From assembly GCA_025055575.1 (NCBI GenBank), contig JANWWP010000018.1:1-38082 (forward strand): a DNA stretch of 38,082 nucleotides, given 5' to 3'. The number at the start of each line of letters is the position of its first letter. The stretch's first letter is position 1. This DNA is from Flavobacteriales bacterium (GTDB taxonomy: Bacteria > Bacteroidota > Bacteroidia > CAIKAF01). The position numbers and the translations under genes were made by a program. The notes under the pieces were generated by a model. That model was not told the origin of the DNA. It did no database searches and was given only the letters and a program-made list of their open reading frames with translations. Shown piece after piece: positions 15,213 through 37,742 of this stretch.

Positions 15213-16268
15213 GTGCGCAGGTACATCGTAGCACTCCTATTGGTATTCACAGCTGCATCCGGTTGTCGGGAAAAAACATCCCGCAGCCCCACGCCCTACC
15301 CATTTAAAATTCCGACGGGTTATCCACGACCTTTTGAACCCAAGGACAACCTCACCACGGTGGAAGGGGCCTTGCTAGGGCGATTTTTGTTTTATGATAA
15401 GAAGCTTTCTGTAAATAACAGCATTTCATGTGCCAGCTGCCATGTGCAGGCCCATGGTTTCTCAGACCCGCGCCAATACAGCGAAGGTGCCTTTGGCCAA
15501 AAGACCCGGCGCCACAGTATGGCGCTTGTGAATGTGGCATTCAACCCTTACACGCGATTTTTTTGGGACGGACGGGCCAAAACCTTAGAAGAGCAAGTGC
15601 TGCATCCTATCCGGGATCCGGTGGAGATGGCCTATTCGGTGGCAGAGGTAGAAAAAAGGCTAAGAGCGGACCCCCGGTATCCGGAACTATTTGAAGCTGC
15701 CTTTGGCGACAGCCGTATTGATTCTGTGCGGATTGCCAAAGCCCTGGCCCAGTTTGTGCGCACCTTGATCTCTTTTAATTCGCGTTACGATCGCTGGGTG
15801 CAGGGTCTGGCTACGCTGGACAGCATGGAGTTGCAAGGTTTGCAATTGATTCAGGACAACTATAAAGGCGATTGTTTTCATTGCCATAACGCCGAAGACC
15901 GTTTGTTCAGCAATTATCAATTTCTCAACAACGGCTTGGACTATGAGAGTGAATGGACGGATTTGGGGCTCTTTGAAGTGACCGGAAATCCCAACGATCG
16001 GGCCAAATTCAAAGTGCCTACACTGCGCAATATTGCCGTTACGGCTCCTTACATGCACGACGGTCGGTTTGCCACCTTGGACCAAGTGCTTGTGGACCAC
16101 TACTTGAGCGGGGGCAAAATATCGCCTACCATAGACCCCATGATGGAATATGCCGGCATAGGATTAAATTTATCGCCCAACGACGTTGTGGCCATTAAAA
16201 AATTTCTTCATACGCTCACCGATTCTACTTTTCTATCCAATCCGGAGTTTTCTGATCCTTTTAAATAA
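15213..16268 (+). CDS. Diheme cytochrome c peroxidase (CcpA/MauG family) lipoprotein
   Basis: Periplasmic peroxidase that uses electrons from c-type cytochromes to reduce H2O2, or a related MauG-type oxidase. Two haem-attachment motifs are present: CASCH (Cys73, Cys76, His77) and CFHCH (Cys221, Cys224, His225). Downstream, FKVPTLRNIAVTAPYMHDGRF carries the conserved axial-ligand region. The N-terminus MRRYIVALLLVFTAASGC resembles a lipoprotein signal with Cys18 as lipidation site. Length (351 aa) is normal. The start is GTG; an in-frame stop at 15183-15185 limits any extension. Confidence 0.93.
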   Translation: MRRYIVALLLVFTAASGCREKTSRSPTPYPFKIPTGYPRPFEPKDNLTTVEGALLGRFLFYDKKLSVNNSISCASCHVQAHGFSDPRQYSEGAFGQKTRRHSMALVNVAFNPYTRFFWDGRAKTLEEQVLHPIRDPVEMAYSVAEVEKRLRADPRYPELFEAAFGDSRIDSVRIAKALAQFVRTLISFNSRYDRWVQGLATLDSMELQGLQLIQDNYKGDCFHCHNAEDRLFSNYQFLNNGLDYESEWTDLGLFEVTGNPNDRAKFKVPTLRNIAVTAPYMHDGRFATLDQVLVDHYLSGGKISPTIDPMMEYAGIGLNLSPNDVVAIKKFLHTLTDSTFLSNPEFSDPFK

Positions 16269-16335: not shown

Positions 16336-16362
16336 GGAACCCGTTCAGGGTTTTCTTGTTTC
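16336..16362 (+). terminator. Possible intrinsic terminator of the peroxidase gene
   Basis: AACCC (16338-16342) and GGGTT (16348-16352) form a 5-bp stem, extendable by two G-T pairs, with loop GTTCA and then TTCTTGTTT. It is short and lies just before folE, so confidence is low. Confidence 0.35.
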
Positions 16363-16373
16363 CTTTGCACTTA

Positions 16374-16967
16374 ATGTTGTGTATGGAGCCTGATATTGCC
16401 TTAACTCCCATCCTGGAGACAGCCGGATTATATAGGGAAATCATCCGACTTGCTGGAGAAGACCCAAATCGCGAAGGATTGGCGAAAACACCAGAACGCG
16501 CCGCCCGTGCTTTTCACTTCTTAACTCAGGGATACCACCAGAACCCCGAAGCCATCTTGAAGTCTGCACTCTTCGAGCAGAAATACAGTGAAATGGTGGT
16601 GGTGAAAGATATTGAAATGTATTCCCTGTGCGAGCACCACCTCCTGCCTTTCTTTGGTAAAGCTCATGTTGCTTACATTCCAAATGGGAAAATTGTTGGG
16701 TTGAGCAAAATACCCCGCGTTGTAGATGCTTTTGCCAGAAGGCTCCAGGTGCAGGAACGTCTGACGTTTGAAATCCGGGACTGTTTGCATGCCACGCTCA
16801 ATCCTTTAGGGGTGGCCGTGGTGATTGAAGCACGCCATATGTGTATGCAAATGCGGGGGGTGCAAAAACAAAATTCTATCACCACCACCTCGGCTTTTAC
16901 GGGGGAGTTTGAGAAAGATGCCACCCGGCGCGAATTTCTTAGCCTCATCACCGCTAAGCTGGCCTGA
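16374..16967 (+). CDS. folE: GTP cyclohydrolase I
   Basis: Converts GTP to 7,8-dihydroneopterin triphosphate, the first step to folate. Zinc and active-site motifs are present: [20 protein letters not shown] (Cys and His ligands) and [16 protein letters not shown] (second Cys). The [20 protein letters not shown] stretch is characteristic. The start could be ATG 16374 or ATG 16383; a TTG at 16356 is less likely. A near-match to the -7 box (TTCCTTTG) ends at 16367. The DegT-family gene starts four bases after its stop. Confidence 0.96.
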
Positions 16968-16971
16968 AAGA

Positions 16972-18168
16972 ATGGTGCAAGCGGCTTTTAGAATTCCTTT
17001 AATGCGTCAACCTTTCCTCCAGGAAGAGGAGACTCGGCGGGCTTTAGCACAATTCATTCTCACCGCCCCGCGCCTGAGCATGGATGCTCAATGTCAACGC
17101 TTTGAAGAAGCCTTTGCCCAACACCAGCAATGCCGCCATGCCATACTGGTGAACAGCGGCGCCAGCGCCAACCTGATTCTTTTACAGGCCTTAAAAAATT
17201 TGGGGCGTCTTAAAACAGGGGACAAGGTGGGATTTTCGGCCCTCACTTGGAGCACCAACACCATGCCCATAGAACAACTGGGCTTTGTGCCCGTGCCGGT
17301 GGATTGCAATCCAGCCACCATGAACGTGCACTTAGAACAATTGAAAGAACGCCTGCGCGAGGTGCCCGACATGAAAGCATTTTTTACGACAAATGTTTTG
17401 GGATTTGCGGGCGATTTACAGGCGATAAAAAATTTCTGCCATCAGGAAGGCCTAATATTCCTTGAGGACAATTGCGAATCCATGGGCACGGAATTACCCG
17501 AAGGAAAGACAGGCAATTTTGGCCTGGCCTCCACTTTTTCCTTTTTCGTGGCCCACCACATGAGCACTATTGAAGGCGGAATGATATGTACCCAGGATGA
17601 CGAATTGGCCGAAATGCTGCGTATTGTAAGGGCCAACGGTTGGGACCGCAATCTTTCCCCCGAAAGCCAAAAAAAACTGCGTGAACAAAACCAAATCACC
17701 TCCGAATTCAAGAGTAAATACACCTTTTATCATCCGGCATATAATGTGCGCCCCACGGAAATTACGGGATTTCTGGGTCTGAAACAATTGGAATACGTGG
17801 TCGAAACCTATGCACAAAGAGAAAAAAATTATCTTTTTATTGAAGAAAACCTTAAAAATCATCCCCACTTTTCACCCTTTGATCATAGCCATATCAAAGT
17901 CCTTTCCGCCTTTTCACTTTCTTTTTTATGTCGCTCGGAAGAACTTAGAGATCATTATGTGGAGCGTTTCATGAAAAATGGAATTGAAGTGCGGCCGCTC
18001 ATCGCCGGAAATATGGCCCGGCAGCCCTATTACAAAAAATACATCGGTCTGGACTTTTCTCTGCCGGGAGCTGAACTAATGGATGCCTGTGGTTTTTATT
18101 GTGGCAATTATCCTGAAATGTCTGAAGAAGACCTCCAGCTTGTGGTAGAGTGCCTACAACCTCAGTAA
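16972..18168 (+). CDS. DegT/DnrJ/EryC1/StrS-family enzyme with His replacing the PLP lysine
   Basis: A fold-type I PLP/PMP enzyme of 398 aa acting on nucleotide sugars. ILVNSGASANLIL is the phosphate-binding start, and LEDNCESMG holds the cofactor-contact Asp. At the place where aminotransferases have the Schiff-base Lys (SFFxxKNLTTGEGG), this protein has SFFVAHHMSTIEGG, His195-His196. That substitution is the hallmark of the 3-dehydratase branch (ColD, and RfbH/E1), which binds PMP and removes the 3-hydroxyl. RfbH-type Fe-S cysteines are not evident, so ColD-like is the closer guess. ATG 16972 sits four bases after folE; the frame is open upstream through folE but without similarity. No other deoxysugar genes are in the window. 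Confidence 0.85.
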   Translation: MVQAAFRIPLMRQPFLQEEETRRALAQFILTAPRLSMDAQCQRFEEAFAQHQQCRHAILVNSGASANLILLQALKNLGRLKTGDKVGFSALTWSTNTMPIEQLGFVPVPVDCNPATMNVHLEQLKERLREVPDMKAFFTTNVLGFAGDLQAIKNFCHQEGLIFLEDNCESMGTELPEGKTGNFGLASTFSFFVAHHMSTIEGGMICTQDDELAEMLRIVRANGWDRNLSPESQKKLREQNQITSEFKSKYTFYHPAYNVRPTEITGFLGLKQLEYVVETYAQREKNYLFIEENLKNHPHFSPFDHSHIKVLSAFSLSFLCRSEELRDHYVERFMKNGIEVRPLIAGNMARQPYYKKYIGLDFSLPGAELMDACGFYCGNYPEMSEEDLQLVVECLQPQ

Positions 18169-22188: not shown

Positions 22189-23994
22189 ATGAAAGCTGGA
22201 GCCGGTAAGTCTGAAATTCAGGTGAAGGGATATGGCTACGGGATGATGGGATATGGACGCGAATTCAATGTCGTGCGCGGACAGCATGCACCCCTCTGGG
22301 TGCGTAGTGTGTATTTGGAAGATTCTGAAAGTCAGAGTGTGGTGATCAGTGTGGCCGAAATTTGTTTTGTTCTTCAGGAATTGAAAACCGCGGTGCTGGA
22401 GCGGTTAAATTCAGTCTTTCCCAGCGCCGGACTAAACGATGATAATTTTTTGTTTTCTGCACAACACACCCACAGCGGACCCGGCGGTTATTCGCATTTT
22501 CCTTTTTACAATTGGAGCATTCCGGGTTATAAACCCGATGTCTTTGAAGCCATCGTAGAGGCAACGGTGCGTTCGGTTTCGGAGGCTTTGCTCTCGGCGC
22601 AACCCGCACGTCTGTATTGGGGAAGCGCCGAATTTGCCCCGCACGAGGATGTGGCCTTTCAACGTTCTTTGAAGGCATACCTGAGAAACCCAGGCGTGGA
22701 GCGCTTCTCAGACTACGAAACCCACCTGGCTCTGGAGCGCACTATGTATCTCTTGAAGGTGGAAAATATGGAAGGCCGGCTCCTTGCCACCATCAACTGG
22801 TTTGGGGTGCACACGACCAGCCTGGGCAACAAGGTAGGACTTCTTTCGCCGGATAACAAAGGCTATGCTGCTGCTTTGCTCGAACAGCGCTACCCGGAAC
22901 ATGTAGCCTTGTTTGCTCAGCAATTCGCCGGAGATGTCTCCCCCAATTTTCACGGGAAAGGCAAATCCTGGGTTCAGGGTCGTCGTTACAAAGACCAGGT
23001 AGAAAGCGCTCTTTTTAATGGCCGGTTGCAATATGAAAAGGCCCGCTACATTATGGACAAAGCGTGTCGCCCCGTGGAGGGGCCGATATCGGTCAGGAGT
23101 TATTTAGTACGTCGGGATTTTCATCACATCCCGGTTCCGCCGGAATACGCCGAAGGTCAGGCCCAGGCCCGGACAGTGCCGGCCTGTCTGGGGGCCGCTT
23201 TTCTCCGCGGTACTCCTGTGGATGGCAAAGGCATGCCCCATGGACTTTATGAACTCACCGTGGCGCTGGCCCGATCCGTGAAAGCGACCGAGCTGATGCT
23301 GGCCCGCGTAAAATCTCCTGAATACCGTCAAAGGATCGAAACTAAATATGCGATGCAGGATCCCAAGGATATTGTCTTCGAAACCGGGGAAGGCTTTTTA
23401 TTAGGCTCGCGCGACCTGAAGAACTTTGTGATGCCCGGAATTACGGATGCCGGTATCTGGCAGTTTAAACAAGAGCACCGTCGGGGCGCCTTGCGCACCT
23501 TGCCCTGGACACCGCATGTGCTGCCCCTGCAGCTTATCACCATCGGGCCTATAGCCATTGCGGCCTTTCCTGGAGAAATCACCACCGAAGCCGGACGGCA
23601 GCTGCGCCATCTCATACTGAACCGTGTGCGCCCAGCCGGTATTCACAACATCGTCATCCAAACCTACAGCAATCACTACTTCGGCTATTGCACCACAGTT
23701 GCCGAATACATGGAACAAGCCTACGAAGGTGGCCACTGTGTTTTTGGAAAATACACACATGGCGCTTTTATGAAAGAATTCGAACAATTGGCCACCGCCT
23801 TGGTATCAGGAAAAGTCTTAGACCCAGGTCCTCCCTACGAAACATTTCCGGAGGAAGAAATTAAATTGCGCACCTACGACAGCGAAAAAAATCCCCCCTT
23901 AAGGTCTTACAAAAATCTAGACAAAAAATACCGGCCGGGCTATTCCGCTTCAGAGAATTCCAACCCCCAAAAGCCCAGAAAACAACCCGCATGA
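22189..23994 (+). CDS. Neutral/alkaline ceramidase-like hydrolase
   Basis: Probable N-acylsphingosine amidohydrolase splitting ceramide into sphingoid base and fatty acid. Family hallmarks are clear: QHTHSGPGG (His93 and His95, the former a zinc ligand by analogy), WFGVHTTSLG (His208), AGDVSPNFHG (Ser251, the presumed catalytic Ser), FPGEITTEAG (zinc-ligand Glu), and NHYFGYCTTVAEYMEQAYEGG (zinc-ligand Tyr). The C-terminal immunoglobulin-like domain of secreted ceramidases seems reduced; the last ~60 residues are charged and Pro-rich. The protein begins at the mature domain with no signal peptide, and an in-frame TAG at 22162-22164 excludes an upstream extension. Confidence 0.88.
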   Translation: MKAGAGKSEIQVKGYGYGMMGYGREFNVVRGQHAPLWVRSVYLEDSESQSVVISVAEICFVLQELKTAVLERLNSVFPSAGLNDDNFLFSAQHTHSGPGGYSHFPFYNWSIPGYKPDVFEAIVEATVRSVSEALLSAQPARLYWGSAEFAPHEDVAFQRSLKAYLRNPGVERFSDYETHLALERTMYLLKVENMEGRLLATINWFGVHTTSLGNKVGLLSPDNKGYAAALLEQRYPEHVALFAQQFAGDVSPNFHGKGKSWVQGRRYKDQVESALFNGRLQYEKARYIMDKACRPVEGPISVRSYLVRRDFHHIPVPPEYAEGQAQARTVPACLGAAFLRGTPVDGKGMPHGLYELTVALARSVKATELMLARVKSPEYRQRIETKYAMQDPKDIVFETGEGFLLGSRDLKNFVMPGITDAGIWQFKQEHRRGALRTLPWTPHVLPLQLITIGPIAIAAFPGEITTEAGRQLRHLILNRVRPAGIHNIVIQTYSNHYFGYCTTVAEYMEQAYEGGHCVFGKYTHGAFMKEFEQLATALVSGKVLDPGPPYETFPEEEIKLRTYDSEKNPPLRSYKNLDKKYRPGYSASENSNPQKPRKQPA

Positions 23995-33853: not shown

Positions 33854-35332
33854 ATGCCCACAGCTTTTCTGAAACGTCTGGATCTCCATACCCTGCGCCG
33901 ATTCCTCGGGCCATTTTTTCTTACTTTCATTATAGCGCTGGTGGTTTTGTTGATGCAATTCATCTGGAAATATATTGATGATTTAGCTGGAAAAGGTTTG
34001 GCCTTGCCCGTGATTGGGGAGTTGTTGCTGTACACATCGGCCACCCTTGTGCCTTTGGCCCTTCCGTTGGCAGTGCTGCTATCCTCGATTATGACTTTTG
34101 GCAGCCTGGCCGAACACCTGGAACTTGTGGCAGCCAAAGCCGCCGGTATTTCTTTGCTGAGGATGATGCGGCCTGTGATGCTGATGGCAGTCGGTTTGTC
34201 GCTGGTGGCCTTTTTTTTCTCAGACCGGCTGATGCCCTTAGCCAATTTGAAAATGCGGGCCCTTATCATGGACATCCAGGATCAGAAACCCGCTATGGAC
34301 ATCAAACCGGGTATTTTTTATCAGGACCTTGAAAAGGTGACCATCCGGGCCGGCCGCGTGGCCCCCGATAAAAAATGGTTATATGACGTGTTAATCTATG
34401 ACCACAGCGATCCGCAATCCGGCAACACGCGGGTGACGCTGGCCTGCTCTGCAAGCGTGGTTGTAACGCCGGACAAAAGGTATTTAATTATCACGCTGCT
34501 GGACGGCCATTCGTATCTGGAGGAAAAATTTTTTCAGAACCGAGATCCGGCCCTGCCTCATTTAACCACGCGCTTTAAAAAACAAGAAATCCGTGTGGAT
34601 ATATCTGAATTTCAGCTGCAGAGGCAAAGCGAATCTCTTTACAGAGGCCACTACACCATGCTGGGCCTGGGGGCTTTGTCTTCAGAAATCCGGCAGCTGA
34701 AAGCTGAGGATGAAGCCCGCACAGAACAGGTTCTGAGCTTCCTACACAAACCCCAAACCCGGCCCCCTTTACCGCCTTCCCACCCTCAGCCATGGCAGGC
34801 TGCCCCCCCGCCGCCGAGTCCTCTATTGGATCCGGCCGCTTTAAAGACTGCCCCATGGTTTGAAAAGCTCTCTTCTGAAGCCCGCGCCTATTTGGAAATT
34901 CAAAGCGGTTTGTGGCTGATGCAATCCAAAGCACGCATGGCGGATCAGCGGAACGAATTCCGCTTCAGGCGTGAAAATTTAGCCCGCTACCAGGTGGAGT
35001 GGCACAGAAAATTCACTCTTTCTGCGGCCTGCCTCCTCATGTTCTTTATCGGTGCACCCTTAGGTGCCATTATCCGAAAAGGCGGTTTGGGACTGCCTTT
35101 AGTGGCGTCCGTGCTGATTTTCATTCTGTACTACATATTGAGCACTTTAGGTGAAAAAGCAGTCAAACAACTCACCTTGAGCGATTGGGCCGGTATGTGG
35201 CTCTCCTCGGCCATTCTTTTGCCTTTGGGCCTCTGGCTCATGCTGAAAGCCAACTACGACAGCCGGATATTTCAAATAGAGACATACCGCCTTCTTTTAG
35301 AAAGAAGCTGGAACAAGTGGCGGAAGCGATGA
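33854..35332 (+). CDS. LptF/LptG-family (YjgP/YjgQ) permease
   Basis: Inner-membrane permease of the LPS export machine, which with LptB2 extracts LPS toward the outer membrane. Of 492 residues, the N-terminal third holds three hydrophobic helices (from ~16, FFLTFIIALVVLLMQFIW; ~55-85; ~105-125). A periplasmic beta-jellyroll-like region follows (~130-260), then a charged, proline-rich stretch, and three C-terminal helices (~390-480). The motif RMMRPVMLMAVGLSLVAFFFSDRLMPLANLK region is typical. ATG 33854 is chosen because it opens the first helix region and follows the -7 box; the longer frame runs into purB. Its stop overlaps the next gene as ATGA. Confidence 0.9.
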   Translation: MPTAFLKRLDLHTLRRFLGPFFLTFIIALVVLLMQFIWKYIDDLAGKGLALPVIGELLLYTSATLVPLALPLAVLLSSIMTFGSLAEHLELVAAKAAGISLLRMMRPVMLMAVGLSLVAFFFSDRLMPLANLKMRALIMDIQDQKPAMDIKPGIFYQDLEKVTIRAGRVAPDKKWLYDVLIYDHSDPQSGNTRVTLACSASVVVTPDKRYLIITLLDGHSYLEEKFFQNRDPALPHLTTRFKKQEIRVDISEFQLQRQSESLYRGHYTMLGLGALSSEIRQLKAEDEARTEQVLSFLHKPQTRPPLPPSHPQPWQAAPPPPSPLLDPAALKTAPWFEKLSSEARAYLEIQSGLWLMQSKARMADQRNEFRFRRENLARYQVEWHRKFTLSAACLLMFFIGAPLGAIIRKGGLGLPLVASVLIFILYYILSTLGEKAVKQLTLSDWAGMWLSSAILLPLGLWLMLKANYDSRIFQIETYRLLLERSWNKWRKR

Positions 35333-36579
35333 GAATTCTGGCTCTGCTCAACAAATTTCCCTTCGGCGTCACCGACGGCGGTTCGGCCGTCAGCAGGGCC
35401 CTGGCTGTTAGTGTACGTGCCCTAGATCCTGACGCCACGATTGTAACGCCCGACACGCCAAAGCATCCCTTTCAGCCTGCCCTGCTTCCTCCAGCGCTTG
35501 CCGCTCCTCCCTGGCAGGCAATTTCCTGCGCCACACACCTCCATCCCTGGGATTTTTTGAAAGCTATTGTCGCCGGGCGTTCTTATCATTTGTGGCGCTA
35601 TCAAAGGCCGGCGTCAGAGTTTCAGCTTCGCAGGTATGTTGAACAGAACGGGCCGGATGTTTGCATACTTGAAGGTATGGCAGGGCTGGCTTTTCTGCCA
35701 TTTATCCGGCGGTATTTCCCGGACTTGCCATGCCTGTACTATGCCCATAATGTGGAATGGAAAGTATGGGAAAGTCTTTACAATAAAATCCCTGCCTGGA
35801 AACCTCAGAAATGGCTTTATAAGCACCTGTATTTACACCTCCAAAGGGAAGAGCTACAGGCCTTGCGCCTGGCCACGGGCGTGAGCGGAGTGAGCGCCGA
35901 AGATGTGCGCTGGTTTTCGGAGGTGGGTGGTATCAGGGCATTACCTGTATGGTATCCCGGCCTGTGGGAGACGCTCCCGGAACCCCGCGCGCCAGAATAT
36001 CGCCAGGGAAGTCCTCTCCGTTTGTACCATCTGGGCTCCATGGACTGGAAACCCACACTGCAGGGCATCTCTTATTTTATCAGAAATATCTGGCCAAGGC
36101 TGAAACGGGCAATCCCCGAGGCCGAACTGCATTTAGCCGGTGCCCATATGCCCAAGTCTTGGTTCACCTATCGCATCCCGGGCTTGTTTGTTCAAGGTCG
36201 TGTAGAATGCCCTGACCAATTCCTGGCGGACAAACATGCCTGCGTTGTTCCAGTCTTCGCAGGTAGCGGCATTAAGATCAAGGTGGTGGAGGCCATGGCT
36301 TATGGAAAACCGGTCATCACAACACAAGTGGGCGCAGCCGGACTTCCCATACTCCCTGGCCAGCACTACCTCCAAGCCGATTCCCCAGGGGAATTTGAAG
36401 CCGCTGTCCGGACGCTCAGGGATAATCCACCCGCTCGCCATGCGCTGGCACTGGAGGGAAGAAAGGCGATCGAGCGTTTTTTTAACCGCGTCCATGCCAC
36501 GGAAGCTCTCAAAAAGCTTTTGTATAGCCTCGGCACGGGCCCACCTCCTACCTTTGAACTTCACCGCACGAAGGAATGA
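35329..36579 (+). CDS. Glycosyltransferase, family 4-like (GT-B)
   Basis: A 416-residue GT-B glycosyltransferase, probably building an envelope glycan. The N-terminal Rossmann half starts MRILALLNKFPFGVTDGGSAVS, and LPCLYYAHNVEWKVWESL is typical of group 1 enzymes. The C-terminal nucleotide-sugar half has LYHLGSMDWKPTLQGISYF and the ExxxxxxG-type motif KIKVVEAMAYGKPVITTQVGA, with acceptor-site Glu. ATG 35329 is preferred (ATGA overlap with the permease gene); the frame is open further upstream but reads through the permease. The donor and acceptor are unknown. Confidence 0.92.
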   Translation: MRILALLNKFPFGVTDGGSAVSRALAVSVRALDPDATIVTPDTPKHPFQPALLPPALAAPPWQAISCATHLHPWDFLKAIVAGRSYHLWRYQRPASEFQLRRYVEQNGPDVCILEGMAGLAFLPFIRRYFPDLPCLYYAHNVEWKVWESLYNKIPAWKPQKWLYKHLYLHLQREELQALRLATGVSGVSAEDVRWFSEVGGIRALPVWYPGLWETLPEPRAPEYRQGSPLRLYHLGSMDWKPTLQGISYFIRNIWPRLKRAIPEAELHLAGAHMPKSWFTYRIPGLFVQGRVECPDQFLADKHACVVPVFAGSGIKIKVVEAMAYGKPVITTQVGAAGLPILPGQHYLQADSPGEFEAAVRTLRDNPPARHALALEGRKAIERFFNRVHATEALKKLLYSLGTGPPPTFELHRTKE

Positions 36580-37742
36580 AAATTCTTGTGCTCACACCCC
36601 GGTTTCCATATCCCTTGGACAAAGGGGACAAATTGCGGGCTTTTCACCAAATCCGCCTATTAAGTGAACACCATGATATTGCTTTATTTGCTCTGAGCGA
36701 TCGGCCTGTCACTGCAGCCCATACAGCACAGTTGAAACCTTATGTAAAAGCCTTGCACGTGGAGCCGCTCCACCCTTTGCAAATTTTGAAGTCTCTATTG
36801 ATAGCCCTGCCCTCCAAGTATCCTTTTCAGGTGGCCTATCACACCCACCCACGGGCGCTTCGGAATTTCCGCCAATTTTTAGAAGCTTTCAAACCCGACA
36901 TCGTTTATTTTCAGCTTTTGCGCACTCTGGCTTACATTCAAGAAGCCAAAGGTTACAAGTTGGCGCTGGATATGATGGATCCCTTTGCCAAAAACGTACA
37001 CCTTCGCCTGCCTCATACTTCTTTTTGGCTCAGACCTTTCCTTGCAGAAGAAGAGGCCCGGTTAGACTACGCCGAGCGCATAGCCTTTGAACGATTTGGC
37101 CGGGTGGGTATCATCAGCCCGCGCGATAGGGAGGATATTCGCAGCCCTGCCCGAGCCGAGGCTTTTATTATTCCTAACGGGATTGATACTACCTATTATC
37201 AACCCATGGAAACCCCCAAAAAATGGGATGTATGCTTTGTGGGCTCCATGCGGTATCCTTCCAACATCGAAGCCGCACTTTTCCTGGCCGAGCAGGTGAT
37301 GCCCCGCGTTTGGGAAACCCTGCCTCAGGCCTGTCTTGTACTTGTGGGCGCCGACCCGCCCCGCCGTATCCGCCGCCTGAGGAACAGCCGCATTGAAGTG
37401 ACGGGCAGGGTCCCGGACACCCGGCCTTATTACGCAGGGTCCAAAGTTTTCTGCGCACCCATGTACCTGAATACCGGCATTCAGAATAAAATTCTGGAAG
37501 CCATGGCCATGGGCTTACCCGTGGTCACCACTTCGCGGGCCAATGAATCATTACAGGGCCAGCCGGATGCGCATCTTTTCGTGGCGGACGATGCAGAGAT
37601 AATGGCGCACGCCGTTTTGAAACTACTGTTTGATTCAGACCTATGTGAGCACATGGGAAACCTGGGCAGAAAATTTGTCCTTGAAACTTTTAGTTGGGAC
37701 AAAACAGCCGAGGCCCTTCAGGCTTTCTTTGAACTGGCATGA
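36576..37742 (+). CDS. Glycosyltransferase, group 1 / GT-B, second of pair
   Basis: A 388-residue GT-B enzyme, distinct from but similar to the preceding one. It begins MKILVLTPRFPYPLDKGDKLR, the start typical of PEP-CTERM/XrtA-associated and sugar-transferase families (Stp1-like). The donor half contains VCFVGSMRYPSNIEAALFLAE and the Glu motif IQNKILEAMAMGLPVVTTSRA. It overlaps the previous gene by ATGA, making a coupled trio with the LptF-family permease. This suggests a role in LPS or another surface polysaccharide. Substrates cannot be assigned from sequence alone. Confidence 0.9.
   Translation: MKILVLTPRFPYPLDKGDKLRAFHQIRLLSEHHDIALFALSDRPVTAAHTAQLKPYVKALHVEPLHPLQILKSLLIALPSKYPFQVAYHTHPRALRNFRQFLEAFKPDIVYFQLLRTLAYIQEAKGYKLALDMMDPFAKNVHLRLPHTSFWLRPFLAEEEARLDYAERIAFERFGRVGIISPRDREDIRSPARAEAFIIPNGIDTTYYQPMETPKKWDVCFVGSMRYPSNIEAALFLAEQVMPRVWETLPQACLVLVGADPPRRIRRLRNSRIEVTGRVPDTRPYYAGSKVFCAPMYLNTGIQNKILEAMAMGLPVVTTSRANESLQGQPDAHLFVADDAEIMAHAVLKLLFDSDLCEHMGNLGRKFVLETFSWDKTAEALQAFFELA

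Follow-up and report, generated by a model that had tools for sequence, protein, structure and literature searches.

The gene that follows folE in this Flavobacteriales genome very probably (at a rough probability of 0.85) encodes a ColD-like C3-dehydratase acting on GDP-4-keto-6-deoxymannose, as part of a colitose-type 3,6-dideoxysugar route with its partner enzymes encoded elsewhere in the genome. A DegT-fold enzyme with histidine at the position of the catalytic lysine, found beside folE, would thereby be explained as part of a 3,6-dideoxysugar pathway that has come to lie away from the rest. We infer the substrate, the cofactor cycle, the final sugar and the SDR of the last step from homology and gene linkage. 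The window, meaning the whole stretch of 38,082 nucleotides that was analysed, had the following features at this locus.

16356..16967, + strand: folE, GTP cyclohydrolase I (Pfam GTP_cyclohydroI, 4.4e-76)
16972..18168, + strand: ColD-like DegT-fold protein of the His type, 398 aa (open reading frame, Pfam, structure match and tree)
17554..17559, + strand: codons of His195 (17554-17556) and His196 (17557-17559), with His195 at the position of the Schiff-base lysine and matching His188 of ColD

The gene behind folE and its active site

The open reading frame of the DegT-fold protein was intact, running from an ATG at 16972 to a stop codon at 18166-18168 (398 residues), and its product matched Pfam DegT_DnrJ_EryC1 at 6.1e-61. 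It contained the motif SFFVAHHMSTIEGG, the first histidine of which is residue 195. This confirmed the original prediction of a DegT-family enzyme having two histidines at the PLP-lysine position, as His195 aligned with His188 of ColD and with the lysine of all seven Lys-type rows in our alignment. The spacing of four bases between the two genes, also read from the sequence at that stage, was correct, with folE ending at its stop codon at 16967. As for the claim that no other deoxysugar genes accompany the enzyme, this held for the window, where the 23 proteins scanned against Pfam included no further deoxysugar enzyme, but not for the genome, in which gmd and fcl-like genes were found on contig C59. 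Also encoded in the window were two glycosyltransferases at 35257-37742, a MauG/MbnH-like di-haem peroxidase just upstream of folE (15213-16268) and a neutral/alkaline ceramidase-family protein at 22189-23994 (Pfam 6.8e-90).

DegT relatives were drawn from genomes, viral contigs (the best 80 of 250 relatives in the viral scan), plasmids and phages, giving 108 rows, of which 88 were distinct and 77 remained after removal of near-copies; 55 of the 77 were used for the tree. Histidine occupied the residue-195 column in 70 of the 77 rows, a share inflated by rows having been gathered mostly with the window protein as query, and lysine occupied it in the other seven. This is exactly the column at which the ColD H188N chain 3b8x differs. 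His195 was kept by the orthologue L006, at 73-74% identity, and by the 18 further members of its clade, and dN between the DegT genes of the two genus members was 0.20 with dS saturated, so that His195 is not a chance substitution. All 24 aligned relatives furthermore had the histidine, and no lysine was invariant among them; the best-kept lysine, K179, was found in 17 of the 19 members of the clade and in 27 of the 70 His rows. An aldimine formed by some other lysine, which the original prediction had named as counting against it, thus found no conserved site among the 24 relatives, the clade or the His rows.

Family placement and linked genes in relatives

Among PDB-chain sequences the window protein matched ColD best (2gms, 1.7e-61), then E1 (3bcx, 6.6e-34) and GDP-perosamine synthase (3bn1, 8.1e-28). 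The four structures most similar to its predicted model (pLDDT 95.3) were all ColD (Z 50.7-49.6, rmsd 1.9-2.1), with 2gms at Z 50.7 and rmsd 1.9 over 381 residues, followed by E1 (Z 46.7 and 46.5) and then by Lys aminotransferases from 46.2 down. In a maximum-likelihood tree of 55 rows the His rows were split from the Lys rows (100/99), and a GDP-type group of 44 rows (100/97), including E. coli ColD, left E1 and three E1-branch rows outside. This group comprised three clades: that of ColD with 13 rows, a phage-rich one with 12 (support 87/36 with a long-branched cyanophage row and 100/98 without it) and the 19-row clade of the window protein (100/99), which lay beside the ColD clade, not inside it. 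The alignment and tree proposed with the original prediction hence placed the protein with the His-type dehydratases and apart from the Lys aminotransferases. Its reading as a ColD/E1-like PMP-dependent 3-dehydratase was supported by this tree, by the lack of a conserved lysine, and by structure and sequence being nearer to ColD than to E1.

With ColD of E. coli O55/O111 and Yersinia pseudotuberculosis, the window protein shares the fold, the histidine at the lysine position, the absence of Fe-S cysteines and, through its relatives, a gene neighbourhood with gmd and an SDR of the ColC/Fcl type. It differs from ColD in being 31-32% identical and belonging to a separate clade, and in that its gene stands alone behind folE in the genus, where no ColC-type gene was found.

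All four cellular orthologues read outside the genus (L007 from a Prochlorococcus, and L027, L028 and L029 from Bacteroidia; 53-58% identical) had an Fcl/ColC-like SDR directly upstream. Such an SDR was present in the locus in 14 of the 19 clade rows, directly adjacent in 13, with gmd there too in four, and the five rows having neither gmd nor SDR in the locus read were the window gene, L006, L051 (cut 48 bp upstream), L055 and L058. On a Streptomyces plasmid gmd was followed by DegT and then by a gene annotated as GDP-L-fucose synthase. The SDR-DegT pair was also present in a 642-kb record of an uncultured phage, and in E. coli O111 ColC adjoins ColD with gmd close by.

Every SDR encoded in one locus with a His-type DegT protein (30/30) had the Cys109, Tyr136, Lys140 and His179 known from E. 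coli Fcl, and 29 of the 30 also kept Ser107. In GDP-fucose synthase the Cys/His pair is described as the epimerisation dyad and the tyrosine as the acid of the reduction (PMC12362431). Residue 135 was proline in nine of ten unlinked Fcl rows (serine in L148) and in none of the 30 linked SDRs (Gly 23, Ala 3, Ser 2, Met 2), which is suggestive of a mark separating the two; the unlinked rows in this comparison included none from L134, L137, L145, L146, L149 or L153. Cys164 was dropped as a ColC mark, being found in 19 of the 30 linked SDRs but also in three unlinked Fcl rows (L142, L143 and L144).

Pathway genes in the genome and the proposed route

The genome of the window (G000; 84 contigs, completeness 99.83) carried, on contig C59, a gmd gene that reached 592 bits against a cut-off of 415 for the GDP-mannose dehydratase model, next to it fcl1 (482 bits with the Fcl model, which has a cut-off of 500) and thereafter fcl2 (L016:11963-12967, 406 bits on the Fcl model). 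A ManC domain was present on contig C68 and also in the sister genome G015. The genome search suggested at the outset, for gmd, colC-like and GDP-mannose genes, thus found gmd, fcl1, fcl2 and ManC but no ColC-type SDR, all the matches in G000 (two) and G015 (one) being of Fcl descent. ColC would be a partner of the dehydratase, however, and is no trait of the enzyme as such. Of the two options that the original prediction had offered, a scattered pathway was borne out, with gmd and the fcl-like genes on C59 and the window being C61, whereas a different substrate was not supported. The window enzyme might still have a different substrate because the genus has no ColC-type partner recognisable by sequence. 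Three other genomes (G045, G082 and G179) had a linked ColC-like SDR plus a separate Fcl, and G395 had the linked SDR only. The gmd gene was found in seven of seven genomes carrying the dehydratase gene, against 231 of 295 class genomes; its presence alone is weak evidence because so many class genomes have it, and its co-occurrence was dropped as an argument.

In fcl2, Cys109 was replaced by tyrosine, with Tyr136, Lys140 and His179 kept. The gene grouped with the fcl1 genes of the genus (99/97) in an SDR tree of 34 rows and is therefore taken as a local duplicate; the tree left out L068, L072, L091, L112 and L118, and five of nine Fcl loci tried passed the motif filter. It was absent from G015, where fcl1 is followed by non-coding DNA up to the next gene.

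ColD, E1 and SpnQ are described as having histidine in place of the catalytic lysine, with a [2Fe-2S] cluster in E1 and SpnQ but not in ColD, which remakes PMP with glutamate (PMC8987622). In the route that we propose, Gmd would convert GDP-mannose to GDP-4-keto-6-deoxy-D-mannose, and glutamate, by homology with ColD, would convert the enzyme-bound PLP to PMP. The PMP would form a Schiff base with the C4 ketone of the GDP-4-keto-6-deoxy-D-mannose, His195 would remove a proton of the cofactor methylene with departure of the C3 hydroxyl, and hydrolysis would free PLP and an enamine, giving GDP-4-keto-3,6-dideoxymannose and ammonia, all presumably without need of an iron-sulfur partner for the dehydratase. 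An Fcl/ColC-type epimerase-reductase would thereafter give the final GDP-3,6-dideoxyhexose for a surface polysaccharide. GDP-L-colitose is the most likely product, although the final sugar may also be a different 3,6-dideoxyhexose or a heptose. The steps would be dispersed in G000 between C68 (ManC), C59 (gmd-fcl1-fcl2) and C61 (the dehydratase behind folE), and, since no ColC-type gene was found, the last step would fall to fcl1, fcl2 or an unrecognised SDR.

The folE-DegT pair was also found in L006, apparently the record of the sister genome G015. With the window protein as query, the gene was present at E<=1e-60 in two of 16 genomes of the order, both from the genus of the window, in at least six of 395 class genomes, with up to four candidates scored per genome, and in two of 386 cyanobacterial genomes. 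Eight folE loci read in further genera of this family (L156-L163, with flanks of 1.5 kb) did not show the dehydratase gene, and folE there lay beside what we take, by eye and from family motifs, to be PTPS/QueD-like or FabD-like genes. The folE gene is thus a genus-specific neighbour, and a functional link to it was unsupported, in view of those eight loci and of the SDR being the neighbour in all four cellular orthologues read outside the genus. The simplest account is that the dehydratase gene came to lie behind folE in this genus.

Alternative readings and distribution

It is conceivable, though doubtful, that the colitose route has been rewired in this lineage. The dehydratase would then have left ColC. 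In G000, fcl2, having no Cys109, would reduce the 3,6-dideoxy-4-keto product while leaving C5 unepimerised, so that a D-3,6-dideoxyhexose on GDP (similar to tyvelose, or its C4 epimer) would arise by a GDP instead of a CDP route. The sister genome bears against this, having the dehydratase yet no fcl2; the fcl2 gene might also just be in decay or act on a different substrate. It is at the same time a concrete case in which to ask how a duplicated fucose synthase could become a 3,6-dideoxysugar reductase.

It is also improbable that the enzyme performs the same chemistry on another sugar, through 3-deoxygenation of GDP-6-deoxy-4-keto-heptose or another GDP-4-keto sugar with Gmd- and Fcl-like partners working on heptose. 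The ColD-related C3-dehydratases of C. jejuni HS:5/HS:11 are described as carrying out PLP/glutamate-dependent C3-dehydration of a GDP-4-keto-6-deoxy sugar that is a GDP-heptose (PMC10440746); they differ from the window protein in this heptose substrate, and are likened to it by description, not by sequence. The clade of the window protein is moreover distinct from E. coli ColD, which differs at 18 positions conserved within that clade. Against a heptose substrate, the Gmd of G000 well exceeded the cut-off of the GDP-mannose dehydratase model, and the linked SDRs retained the Cys/His/Tyr/Lys set of the hexose-acting Fcl/ColC enzymes.

An enzyme of the E1 (AscC)/RfbH type, acting as a 3-dehydratase on CDP-4-keto-6-deoxyglucose with an iron-sulfur reductase, is very improbable. 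E1 shares the DegT fold and the histidine at the lysine position and was the next relative after ColD, and the curated RfbH model was the best curated family match of the window protein (no ColD-specific model was among these matches), but its score of 202 bits fell far short of the cut-off of 423. E1 has an Fe-S cluster and an E3 partner (PMC8987622), whereas the columns of its Fe-S cysteines held R, L, S and L in the window protein and cysteine in none of the 19 clade members, as in ColD. These missing cysteines and the RfbH score led us to reject an E1-type enzyme; the E1 rows also stood outside the GDP-type group, the linked genes were GDP-sugar genes, and G000 held a separate E1-branch protein. 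The latter (L017:8454-9674 on contig C60) was a second His-type DegT protein, itself without the E1 Fe-S cysteines. Its gene ended about 80 bp before what we take, by eye, to be an nqrA-F operon; NqrF is an iron-sulfur flavoprotein reductase.

An aminotransferase working without lysine, giving an amino sugar such as perosamine, is equally remote: the DegT fold is common to many Lys aminotransferases, and the ColD H188N crystal holds GDP-perosamine (3b8x title), so that His-site mutants are able to hold an aldimine, but the invariant histidine, the position of the His rows opposite the Lys rows and the lack of a conserved lysine led us to reject a Lys-type aminotransferase, and the linkage in the loci read was to epimerase-reductases, not to acetyltransferases. 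Perosamine synthase uses GDP-4-keto-6-deoxymannose; this enzyme and the ArnB/WecE aminotransferases share the fold, but formed their own separate branch, with lysine at the His195 position as read in ArnB and WecE.

Colitose pathways are already known, and the window protein, as a ColD-like dehydratase, adds a member from a clade that has received less study. L-colitose is described, in a survey based on completed genomes, as occurring across many phyla and as absent from TACK archaea (PMC7725333), and ColD and ColC are among the annotated proteins of an environmental endosymbiont (PMC8204192). Our data indicate a second clade of GDP-sugar 3-dehydratases, spread over Bacteroidia, a Prochlorococcus, a Streptomyces plasmid and phage contigs. 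For colitose together with cyanophage, or for DegT with histidine and colitose, nothing was found among the open-access papers searched.

His-type DegT genes flanked by gmd and/or Fcl-like genes were common both in IMG/VR contigs and in Synechococcus phages (49 of 50 phage records matched), as seen in L050-L129, the best 80 of 250, and in L131 and L132, which suggests that 3,6-dideoxysugar synthesis is encoded by phages. Five of the viral contigs (L082, L085, L089, L096 and L109) carried an E1-branch DegT gene and a GDP-type His DegT gene a few kb apart, and the E1-branch rows of L082 and L096 retained the Fe-S cysteine columns.
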